A stretch of DNA of 64,000 nt, taken from Prauserella alba (lineage in GTDB: Bacteria > Actinomycetota > Actinomycetes > Mycobacteriales > Pseudonocardiaceae). The notes under the pieces were generated by a model. That model was not told where the DNA came from. It saw only the letters and a list, made by a program, of their open reading frames with translations, and ran no database searches. Below are positions 50,211 to 53,945 of this stretch, in pieces. A program made the translations under genes and the position numbers. The stretch's first letter is position 1. Each line of letters starts with the position of its first letter. The stretch spans positions 1 to 64,000 of the forward strand of contig NZ_JAMTCH010000004.1 of assembly GCF_024171735.1 (NCBI RefSeq), given 5' to 3'.

Positions 50211-50897
50211 ATGCCCGCCGCCACGGCCATGCCGCCCCACCTGCTGACCGCCGCACTCGACGCTCCCGGTTTCATGCCCACCGACGAGGGTCTCGCCCTC
50301 TACGACGCCCTGCACGAGACCGTGGCCGCACGGCCGGGCGACGCCGACGAGCGGCCCGTCGCGGTCGAGATCGGCAGCTACTGCGGCAAGTCGACCGTCT
50401 TCCTGGGCGCGGCCGCGCAGGAGACGGGTGCGCGGGTCGTGACGGTGGATCACCACCGCGGTTCCGAGGAACACCAACCCGGCTGGGAGTACCACGACCC
50501 CGGGCTCGTCGACCCCCACACCGGCCTGCTCGACACCCTGACCGCCTTCCGCCGGACCATCGCCGGAGCCGGGCTGGAGGACCATGTCGTGGCCGTGGTC
50601 GGCCGGTCCCCCGAGGTCGCGGCGCTGTGGCGGACCCCGGCCGACCTGGTGTTCATCGACGGCGGCCACACCGAGGAAGCCGCCGACGCCGACCTCGCCG
50701 GCTGGGCACCGTGGGTGCGGCCGGGTGGCCTGCTGGCCATCCACGACGTGTTCCCCGATCCCCGCGACGGCGGCCGTCCGCCGTTCCACATCTTCCGCCG
50801 CGCGCTGGCCTCCGGGCAGTTCGCCGAACACACGGCGACCGGCTCGATGCGCCTGCTGCGGCGGATCGCCGGTCAGCCGGGAACGCCCGTCACGTAG
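50211..50897 (+). CDS. Class I SAM methyltransferase, MeT1-like (candidate methylmannoside 1-O-methyltransferase)
   Basis: A 228-residue soluble methyltransferase of the Methyltransf_24 type: [17 protein letters not shown] around 51-67, [20 protein letters not shown], and the metal/catalytic motif [18 protein letters not shown] with Asp150 and His153, then LLAIHDVF. The DGGH pattern is that of divalent-metal O-methyltransferases. With a GT4 transferase, a second methyltransferase and a toroidal hydrolase next to it, it fits MeT1, the enzyme that caps mycobacterial methylmannose polysaccharide by 1-O-methylation; this is inferred from family and context. It is convergent with the hydrolase-like gene and overlaps its end by 25 bp. 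Confidence 0.75.
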
Positions 50898-51964
50898 GTG
50901 TCGCAGCCACACCCGGCGCCGACGGGTGCGAGACCGAGCGGGAGGCCGTCGCCGCGGAAGATCGCCGACGCCGGAGTGGTGCGCGACAGCGCGTCGGCCG
51001 CCAGGATCACCGCCGCACCGGTCCACGTGGTCCGTTCCTCGGGCCAGCGCTTGCCGTCGGCGAACACGTGGCCCGTCCAGTACGAGCCGTCCGGGTCACG
51101 AAGGTGCTGCATGGCCGCCAGCAGCTCCCTGGCCCGCGCGGCCTCCCCCAGCGCATCGAGGCTGAGCACGAGCTCGCACGTCTCCGCCCCGGTGACCCAC
51201 GGCCGGTCGTCGACACACCGGGCGCCGAGCCCGTCGACGACGAACTCGTGCCAGCGCCGGTGGATCCGGTCCAGCCCCGCCTGCCCGCGGACGGCACCCC
51301 CGAGCACCGGGTAGTACCAGTCCATCGAGTACCGGCTCTTGTCCGCGAACGCCTCGGGGTGGGCCCGTAGCGCGTGCCCGAGCCTGCCGAGCGCGACCTC
51401 CCAGTCCGGCTGGGGCCGCTCGACGTGGTCGGCCAGCGCGAGCGCGCACCGCAGACTCTGGTGGATGCTGGCGCATCCGGACAGCAGAGCCTCGCCCGCC
51501 CATGCCCCCTCCCCGCCACGCGCCCAGGCGACCTCACCGCGTTCGGCCTGCGCGTCGAGCACGAGGTCGACGGCGGCCCGCACGACCGGCCACATACCGC
51601 GGGCGAACTCCTCGTCCCCGGTGCACGTCAGGTGGTGCCACACGCCGACCGCCACGTACGCACAGAAGTTGGTGTCGGTGGTCGGGTCCTCGACGCGGCC
51701 ACCGACGATCTTCGCCGGCCACGATCCGTCGGCCCGCTGGGTGCGGCGGCACCAGTCGTAGGCCGCCGCCGCCTCGTCGTGGAGGCCCGCGGCCGTCAGC
51801 GCCATGGCGGACTCCACGTGGTCCCACGGGTCGGTGTGGCCGCCGGGGAACCACGGAACGGCACCGGAACTCTCCTGCACGGCGGCGATCGACTCCGCCG
51901 TGGCCGTCACGTCCACGGCGGTCAGCACCCCGGGAACCGCAGGAACTCCGGGCGGGTCAGTCAC
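50873..51964 (-). CDS. Six-hairpin (alpha/alpha toroid) protein, MmpH-like candidate endomannosidase
   Basis: A 363-residue soluble protein often labelled prenyltransferase because of helical repeats. It looks more like a six-hairpin glycosidase: [73 protein letters not shown] and [18 protein letters not shown] repeat the helix-pair pattern with conserved Trp, Asp and Glu. In mycobacteria the MMP cluster encodes a hydrolase (MmpH) of such a fold that cuts the polysaccharide into primers. The start at 51964 overlaps the upstream methyltransferase stop by 8 bp. The activity is inferred from its neighbours. Confidence 0.7.
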
Positions 51965-52715
51965 CGGCGGCCCCCTGGCTCGCGCCGCGGCCGTCGGCGC
52001 CGGCCGCGTCCTTGACGCTGTACACCGCGAGACTCTTGCCCACCGCGGGATCGAGCAGCCGCTCGGCGGTCCGGGTCAGCCAGGGCTTCCGCATCATGTC
52101 CCACACCAGCACCCGGTGATAGGCCTTGACCAGTGGGTTGTCGTCGTTGTCGGGCCCGACGGCGCATTTGAGCCACCAGTAGGGGGCATGCAGCGCGTGC
52201 GCGTGCTCGCCGCCGACCGGCCGGAGCCCTGCGGAACGCAGCTTCGCGCGCAGCTCATCGCCCCGGTAGATCCGCACGTGCCCGCCCTCCACCTCGTGAT
52301 AGGCGTCCGAGAGCAGCCAGCACACGCGCTCCGGCAGCCAGCGGGGCACCGTGACGACGACCGACCCGCCGGGCCGCGCCACGCGCACGAGCTCGGCGAT
52401 CGCCCGTTCGTCCTCGGGGACGTGCTCCAGGATCTCCGAGGCGATCACGCAGTCGAACGCCCCGTCCGGGAACGGCAGCCGCAGCGCATCGCCCGCCACC
52501 GTGGTGGCCGCGGCCCCCGCCGGCACCTGACCTTCGGCCGACATCGCGGCGAACATCGTCTCGACCTCGGCTAGCGCGGACTTGTCCTGGTCGAACGCCA
52601 CGACATCGGCGCCGCGGCGGTAGGCCTCGAACGCGTGCCTGCCCGCACCGCAGCCGACGTCGATCACGGTCGTACCCGGTCCGACCCCGATCCGGTCGAA
52701 ATCCACCGTCAGCAT
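51957..52715 (-). CDS. Class I SAM methyltransferase, MeT3-like (candidate mannose 3-O-methyltransferase)
   Basis: A 252-residue Methyltransf_11-type enzyme: motif I TVIDVGCGAGRHAFEA near 16-31, acidic loop VVAFDQDKSAL, motif LPFPDGAFDCVIASEILEHVPED, and post-motif VARPGGSVVVTVPRW. The later part (HEVEGGHVRIYRGDELRAKL, HALHAPYWWLKCAVG) is typical of methyltransferases found beside GT4 genes. Its ATG follows directly on the TAG stop of the GT4 gene, so the two are one unit. The position matches the putative 3-O-methyltransferase MeT3 of the MMP cluster; the substrate is inferred. Confidence 0.75.
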   Translation of the reverse strand: MLTVDFDRIGVGPGTTVIDVGCGAGRHAFEAYRRGADVVAFDQDKSALAEVETMFAAMSAEGQVPAGAAATTVAGDALRLPFPDGAFDCVIASEILEHVPEDERAIAELVRVARPGGSVVVTVPRWLPERVCWLLSDAYHEVEGGHVRIYRGDELRAKLRSAGLRPVGGEHAHALHAPYWWLKCAVGPDNDDNPLVKAYHRVLVWDMMRKPWLTRTAERLLDPAVGKSLAVYSVKDAAGADGRGASQGAAGD

Positions 52716-53945
52716 CTACCTCGCCTTTCGCCGTGTCCGGTCGATCACCTCGCGGTATGCATCCACTGTGGACGCAGCGACGGATCGCCAGCTGTACCGT
52801 TCGAGAGCCCGCGCCCTTCCCGCTTCGCCGAGGCGACCGCGCAGATCCCGGTCGTCGAGCACGGTGGCCAGCTCCCGCGTCAGCGCCTCGGTGTCGCCGG
52901 GAGGCACGAGCCGTCCGCAGTCGCCCACCACCTCGGGCAACGCTCCTGCCCGGCTGGCCACCAGGGGCGTGCCGCAGGCCATCGCTTCGACCGTGGGCAG
53001 CGAGAAGCCCTCGTAGAGGGACGGCACACAGGCCACGTCCGCCGAGGCCAGCAGGCCGGCGAGCTCGTCGTCGGCCAGCCCGTGCACCGCGCGCACGACG
53101 TCGCCGATCGCCAGTTCGTCGATGAGCCTGCGGGTGGGCCCGTCGTCGGCGAGCTTGCTGACCAGCACCAGTTCGACGTCACGTTCGGCCCGCAGCTTCG
53201 CCACCGATTCGAGCAGGTGGCGGACACCTTTCAGCGGCACGTCCGCACTGGCCACCGCCACGATCCGGCCCGGGACCCGATCGCCGGTGGGCCGGAACAG
53301 TTCCGTGTCGACGCCCAGCGGAATCGTCGTGAGCCGTTCCCGTGCCACCCGGAAGTCATCGGCGATGTCGTCGGCCGACGCCTGCGACACGGTGATCAGC
53401 CGCGGCAGGCGCCGGGCCACCCGCGCCTGCATCGTCACGAAGCCGTACCAGCGGCGGACCGCGAGCCTGCGCCGCCACGGCGCCGCCGCCAGATCGGCGA
53501 CCCGGTCCCGGGTGATCGGATGGTGCACCGTCGCCAGCAGGGGAACGCCGGCACGCTGCAGTCCGAGCAGTCCGTAGCCGAGGCACTGGTTGTCGTGCAC
53601 GACGTCGAACTCGGCCGCCCTGCGCCGCAGCATCCGGGCTGCGCGCAGGCTGAAGGTCAGCGGCTCCGGGAAACCGGCCGTCCACATCGCCCCGACCTCG
53701 AGCAGGTCGACGGCATCGCGGTACTCACCGAGCCGCGGCGTGCGGAACGGGTCGGGGTCCCGGTACAGGTCGAGACTCGGCACGGTCGTGAGCCGAACCG
53801 GGTCGTCGAGCTCCGGATAGGGCTGCCCGGACAGCACCTCGACGTCGTGTCCGAGTTCGGCCAGCCCCCGGCTGAGATGCCGCACGTACACTCCCTGCCC
53901 ACCGCAGTGCGGTTTGCTCCGGTAGGACAACAACGCGATACGCAT
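52716..53945 (-). CDS. GT4-family glycosyltransferase, ManT-like
   Basis: A retaining GT-B glycosyltransferase of 409 residues. The acceptor half starts MRIALLSYRSKPHCGGQGVY with the glycine loop GGQGVYVRHLSRGL; the donor half has IPLGVDTELFRPTGD, ADVPLKGVRHLLE and the GT4 E-x7-E motif in SLYEGFSLPTVEAMACGTP. Cytoplasmic, no membrane segment. In mycobacteria ManT, a GT4 alpha-1,4-mannosyltransferase, extends methylmannose polysaccharide, and its gene sits with meT1, meT3 and mmpH as here. It is the first gene of a three-gene operon, with a KstR-like box 54 bp before its ATG. Confidence 0.8.
   Translation of the reverse strand: MRIALLSYRSKPHCGGQGVYVRHLSRGLAELGHDVEVLSGQPYPELDDPVRLTTVPSLDLYRDPDPFRTPRLGEYRDAVDLLEVGAMWTAGFPEPLTFSLRAARMLRRRAAEFDVVHDNQCLGYGLLGLQRAGVPLLATVHHPITRDRVADLAAAPWRRRLAVRRWYGFVTMQARVARRLPRLITVSQASADDIADDFRVARERLTTIPLGVDTELFRPTGDRVPGRIVAVASADVPLKGVRHLLESVAKLRAERDVELVLVSKLADDGPTRRLIDELAIGDVVRAVHGLADDELAGLLASADVACVPSLYEGFSLPTVEAMACGTPLVASRAGALPEVVGDCGRLVPPGDTEALTRELATVLDDRDLRGRLGEAGRARALERYSWRSVAASTVDAYREVIDRTRRKAR

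Follow-up and report, generated by a model that had tools for sequence, protein, structure and literature searches.

Positions 50,211 to 53,945 of the 64,000-nucleotide stretch of Prauserella alba DNA analysed here (contig NZ_JAMTCH010000004.1; hereafter the window) hold four genes, meT1, mmpH, pmeT3 and manT, whose open reading frames (ORFs) are uninterrupted by stops (Table 1). manT and pmeT3 abut, pmeT3 and mmpH share 8 bases, and meT1 is convergent with mmpH, which it overlaps by 25 bases. The host genome measures 5.6 Mb and is 99.93% complete. The original prediction had read the group as a cluster for the synthesis of methylmannose polysaccharide (MMP), made up of a GT4 transferase, a Methyltransf_11 enzyme, a toroid protein and a DGGH methyltransferase. 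Our analysis bears this out. Because three of the genes are orthologous to crystallised enzymes of M. hassiacum, and because the gene order and the catalytic residues agree, a bona fide MMP biosynthesis cluster in Prauserella is very probable.

Identity of the four proteins and their catalytic residues

Pfam and PDB matches confirmed the four protein classes. The Pfam scan found Methyltransf_24 in MeT1, Methyltransf_11 (2.4e-21) in pMeT3 and GT4 domains in ManT. It returned no domain for the toroid protein MmpH, which also stays far under the cut-off of glucan-hydrolase models (TIGR01577, 4.7e-12). The four proteins were searched against all PDB sequences (E ≤ 0.001), and mycobacterial MMP enzymes, with which the original prediction had proposed a comparison, were the best matches of three of them. 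The sole match of MeT1 is 6g7d (E 5.7e-80), which we take to be the M. hassiacum MeT1; the DGGH motif occupies MeT1 residues 150-153 and is at least 97% conserved across 128 loci. MmpH likewise has a sole match, 7qsj, described as 'Methylmannose polysaccharide hydrolase (MmpH)' (E 2.6e-159), and ManT matches 7qsg best (E 2.7e-171), followed by 6kih (1.1e-22). PMC9883506 also gives 6g7d as M. hassiacum MeT1. The four proteins are 91–95% identical to those of P. salsuginis, the nearest named locus, and about 58–70% identical to the mycobacterial enzymes.

pMeT3 drew 36 PDB matches to generic methyltransferases (best 5.6e-13). Its AlphaFold2 model is a class I S-adenosylmethionine (SAM) methyltransferase with a predicted local distance difference test score (pLDDT) of 90.4, and Foldseek returned 1513 matches to the generic methyltransferase fold (E ≤ 0.001), the nearest being TleD, RebM and AtmM. 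RebM methylates a sugar, and one AtmM PDB entry carries the description D-glucose O-methyltransferase; such generic fold matches pick out no single function. Encoded between ManT and MmpH, pMeT3 shares about 56–73% identity with its counterparts in the named loci with tblastn hits, and 95% with that of P. salsuginis.

The site residues named in PMC9883506 were placed by hand through the 7qsj and 7qsg alignments. In ManT, all nine are identical to the published set, the GDP-mannose residues included, with H141, K239, E312 and E320 corresponding to His142, Lys240, Glu313 and Glu321 in the published numbering. In MmpH, ten of eleven are identical, with D45, D48 and E261 corresponding to Asp47, Asp50 and Glu262; the exception is Thr163, which is Ser here. 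The published substitutions Asp47Ala and Asp50Ala both caused strong activity loss, and Asp47 was labelled the putative acid (PMC9883506). We surveyed these positions, in published numbering, at 156 loci, some of which are duplicates (for example, L007 and L184). Asp47 and Glu262 are invariant (156/156 each), whereas position 50 holds Asp at 126 loci, Asn at 29 and Cys at one; a tree inferred with this column excluded requires at least five changes between Asp and Asn. Since Asp47 is invariant while Asp50 is replaced by Asn in 29 of 156, the conservation contrast favours Asp47, rather than Asp50, as the probable catalytic acid.

In the pathway predicted here, which follows the scheme published for mycobacteria, MmpH would cleave MMP already present and so release short oligomannosides. 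These would serve ManT as acceptors for α-(1→4)-linked mannose donated by GDP-mannose. The added residues would receive a 3-O-methyl group from pMeT3, and a methyl group placed by MeT1 on O-1 would cap the reducing end. The expected product is a methylated mannan of the cytoplasm with affinity for long acyl chains. The activity of pMeT3 is described as unproven in any organism (PMC9883506).

Table 1. Features of the MMP locus and its surroundings, in window positions.
Feature	Position	Strand	Length	Basis or remark
meT1, predicted MMP 1-O-methyltransferase	50211..50897	+	228 aa	6g7d match; Methyltransf_24
mmpH, predicted MMP α-(1→4)-endomannosidase	50873..51964	-	363 aa	7qsj match; site residues
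pmeT3, predicted 3-O-methyltransferase	51957..52715	-	252 aa	Methyltransf_11; position beside mmpH
manT, predicted GDP-mannose-dependent α-(1→4)-mannosyltransferase	52716..53945	-	409 aa	7qsg match; site residues
Intergenic stretch before manT, with the likely promoter of manT, pmeT3 and mmpH	53946..54098	-		Gap from manT start to end of ORF 54099-54989; promoter inferred
3-oxosteroid 1-dehydrogenase (KstD)	46462-48261			NF005882 at 937.7 bits (cut-off 788)
Small ferredoxin	near 48222-48452			Follows KstD
FAD protein	48413-50017 or longer			
Mce operon	from ~54 kb			First ORF upstream of manT, Mce-associated, 54099-54989

Conserved order and distribution of the cluster

In the canonical order, ManT, pMeT3 and MmpH (the trio) lie on one strand, followed by convergent MeT1, all within 5.5 kb; the window's cluster has this order. 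A scan of named contigs, of which the best 80 of at least 578 relatives were kept and which leans towards close kin, found it at 70 of the 80 loci, so the compact grouping claimed for the window is real and not due to chance. Among further loci from the window's family and class, 44 of 59 have it. The ten non-canonical named loci comprise four without MeT1, three without ManT and three with MeT1 displaced or flipped. The three ManT-less loci (L047, L055 and L059) lie at N gaps or contig edges, and runs of N adjoin the trio in L047 and L055. A loss of ManT in Saccharomonospora L055 was ruled out by a 79% identical ManT on another contig of the same genome (G782); in L047, also from Saccharomonospora (G781), GT4 matches reach 40% identity or less and no closer ManT was seen.

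MMP genes are common across actinomycetes. At E ≤ 1e-30, MmpH was matched in 95 of 390 genomes (19 of 46 genera) of the window's family and in 189 of 394 genomes (47 of 137 genera) sampled from the class. The presence of the cluster outside mycobacteria, which the original prediction had offered as news, is thus not new, and homologues had been published earlier: MmpH homologues are named in Corynebacterium, Rhodococcus, Streptomyces and Nocardia, and S. griseus produces an acetylated MMP (PMC9883506). For Prauserella, the literature search, which covered papers without their supplements, found no report of MMP genes. We regard the cluster as an unexceptional member of a known system, with good support. 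One locus, L172 (G445), carries a second MmpH copy, and the other three genes were not found in the fetched region.

The neighbours of 116 loci were clustered (ORFs of at least 150 aa), and the top 45 of the 122 clusters, which were inspected, brought out no conserved gene beyond the four. The candidates were shadow ORFs or lineage-bound genes, among them members of SDR, LLM oxidoreductase and TetR families.

Descent of the cluster

A FastTree tree of 151 rows was built from the window and 150 loci of sufficient coverage, with Shimodaira-Hasegawa-like support, a midpoint root and long branches flagged. The window and P. salsuginis group together (support 100), within a 95-row clade (support 100) of clusters from Pseudonocardiaceae, Mycobacteriaceae and Nocardiaceae that includes Saccharopolyspora, Haloechinothrix, Nocardia, Rhodococcus and Mycobacterium. 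This pattern fits an inheritance that was probably vertical for the most part, not throughout. Two genomes of the window's family (G282 and G286) cluster with two genomes of family f29 (support 100), and in this one clade from two families (loci L126, L127, L134 and L144) MeT1 is co-directional with the trio; because all four share this arrangement, the grouping suggests horizontal transfer among them. A four-gene cluster was also seen in L083, a metagenome-assembled genome labelled Acidobacteria, and is placed with mycobacteria in the tree; this is perhaps a misbinned contig.

Occurrence of MMP genes without FAS-I

We looked for type I fatty-acid synthase (FAS-I) with PF08354, which recovered the positive control Corynebacterium glutamicum. 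FAS-I exceeded the cut-off in 51 of 394 class genomes; G718 is an additional match under the cut-off. In this sample, 38 genomes have MmpH and FAS-I, 151 MmpH only, 13 FAS-I only and 192 neither, counts that come from related genomes and are no statistical test. FAS-I over the cut-off was also observed outside the window's order in genus g79 of family f29, many members of which have MmpH too. Because 151 of the 189 MmpH-positive genomes and the host are without FAS-I, MMP cannot serve FAS-I alone; provided that MMP is indeed the product of these clusters, its general role must lie outside a partnership with FAS-I.

Alternative readings of the locus

Several observations weigh against an MMP biosynthesis cluster in the window. 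PF08354 did not detect FAS-I in the 99.93% complete host genome. A 91% complete genome of the same genus (G259) gave no MmpH match at E ≤ 1e-30. The four-gene set is not universal, MeT1 being missing within reach at four of the 80 named loci. No solved orthologue of pMeT3 was found among PDB sequences, and the activities and product in the host are predicted from orthology, order, residues and distribution.

The four genes might instead act on another glycan, methylglucose polysaccharide or a wall glycan for instance. In favour of this, GT4 and Methyltransf_11 proteins take on varied roles, and elsewhere in the genome a GpgS-like gene (G000:C1:1945307-1946254) exceeds the NF010496 cut-off with 429.4 bits against 262, so that the host may have the initial step of methylglucose synthesis as well. 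The methylglucose lipopolysaccharide (MGLP) pathway, whose first enzyme GpgS has this strong match, likewise yields a methylated acyl-binding polysaccharide, but it is glucose-based and uses other genes. MmpH and MeT1 have no further PDB match at E ≤ 0.001 and ManT keeps its GDP-mannose residues, and we regard this reading as very improbable. A product that differs from the mycobacterial MMP, such as an acetylated polymer like that of S. griseus or one of another length, is a less remote prospect, although a doubtful one. It would agree with the acetylated form made by S. griseus (PMC9883506), with the distance to the mycobacterial enzymes and with the altered Thr163; however, the window falls inside the clade that holds mycobacterial clusters, and the neighbour clustering brought out no fifth conserved gene. 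The S. griseus polymer resembles the one predicted here as a methylmannose polymer outside mycobacteria and is acetylated, unlike mycobacterial MMP; the S. griseus ManT homologue is 53% identical to M. hassiacum ManT (PMC9883506). With the M. hassiacum cluster itself (MHAS_04402-04405; PMC9883506), the window shares four orthologues and the catalytic residues, and differs in its Pseudonocardiaceae host without FAS-I, in Ser for Thr163 of MmpH and in the flanking genes.

The flanking genes bear on a further reading, in which the MMP cluster is functionally tied to adjacent sterol catabolism and Mce uptake. KstD, well over its NF005882 cut-off, the ferredoxin, the FAD protein and the Mce operon flank the cluster, and the original prediction had drawn a tie to sterol metabolism from such neighbours. 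Among the 116 loci, close relatives of the KstD side recur only in P. salsuginis (L004), and those of the Mce side are confined to this locus and two loci of Saccharomonospora; so narrow a recurrence, at one to three loci, led us to reject the link as a general feature. Eight Nocardia loci have distant FAD-dependent proteins (33–36% identity) near ManT; the one scanned belongs to the PRK07121 family, not KstD. Distant Mce-type proteins (29–41% identity) occur at least 6 kb off in L081, L082, L145 and L150. KstD and the ferredoxin lie between the MMP genes and a mur/fts cell-wall cluster, which suggests a chance chromosomal place, and a functional tie appears very unlikely. An MMP biosynthesis cluster remains the preferred reading.

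A divergent variant linked to a caspase-type gene

A divergent MmpH, 44–54% identical to that of the window, was found in 33 of the 95 MmpH-positive family genomes (L114-L125, L128-L130 and L197-L214). The genes of this trio show rapid evolution, and most of its MmpH proteins have Asn at position 50. L207 is without ManT and L123 has only its C-terminal part. MeT1 was not found at any of the 33 loci, and searches of 15 whole divergent genomes gave no orthologue, only three weak matches (best 2.7e-15). At 30 of the 33 loci, a large caspase-NACHT/AAA-TPR ORF stands beside the trio on its strand, 3–203 bases from ManT (28 loci measured; the figure for L117 was discarded as an artefact); the ORFs of L122, L198, L211 and L212 have a frame change near the end. 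Among 20 aligned members, Pfam (E ≤ 0.1) found caspase C14 in 19, TPR_12 in 19, AAA_16 in 11, NACHT in nine and FHA in four. The caspase assignment is based on PF00656 matches (19/20, best 2.3e-7) together with His84 and Cys135, which are invariant in 20/20. A profile of the caspase-domain alignment (A3) retrieved no caspase from the PDB (best E 0.77), and PADLOC gave scattered matches on the 20 members, its caspase model matching one.

Within the family, 38 of 390 genomes (five genera) carry the caspase-type domain; in the class it was seen, weakly, in one of 197. MmpH is also present in 29 of the 38. No trace of MMP genes was seen near the caspase gene in the other nine, of which eight are informative, the contig of L222 ending just past that gene; in L215-L222, eight genomes of one genus, the region retrieved showed no trio. 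At L206 and L207 the caspase ORF is still present next to broken remnants of the trio. The informative trio-less genomes and these remnants indicate that the caspase gene can persist once the trio is gone, which argues for a lineage-specific linkage and disfavours strict mutual need. The host genome has no match to A3 at E ≤ 1e-25, and the variant is not in the window.

In these relatives, we tentatively propose that MMP enzymes were drawn into a caspase-controlled module, in which an uncapped methylmannan or its turnover might act in cell death or defence as a signal, an effector or a guarded target; we consider this possible, if somewhat short of likely. Caspase/STAND conflict systems with GT4 domains (PMC7159879 and PMC8195603) come closest to the MeT1-less loci, where a gene with caspase, NACHT/AAA and TPR domains adjoins a GT4 gene. 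Excerpts of these papers mention caspases, STAND proteins and GT4 domains, not this gene set, and contain neither 'mannos' nor 'polysaccharide', whereas the partners here are ManT, pMeT3 and MmpH. No paper on a caspase/NACHT gene with a glycosyltransferase in Amycolatopsis was found in the open-licence literature.

Implications

The contrast between Asp47 and Asp50 of MmpH favours one answer to a question left partly open by PMC9883506. So far, MMP has been presented as modulating fatty-acid synthesis in mycobacteria; if the clusters described here make MMP, it could be studied in harmless organisms without FAS-I. If the caspase-linked variant acts as one unit, a storage-type polysaccharide would be linked to a cell-death-type switch.

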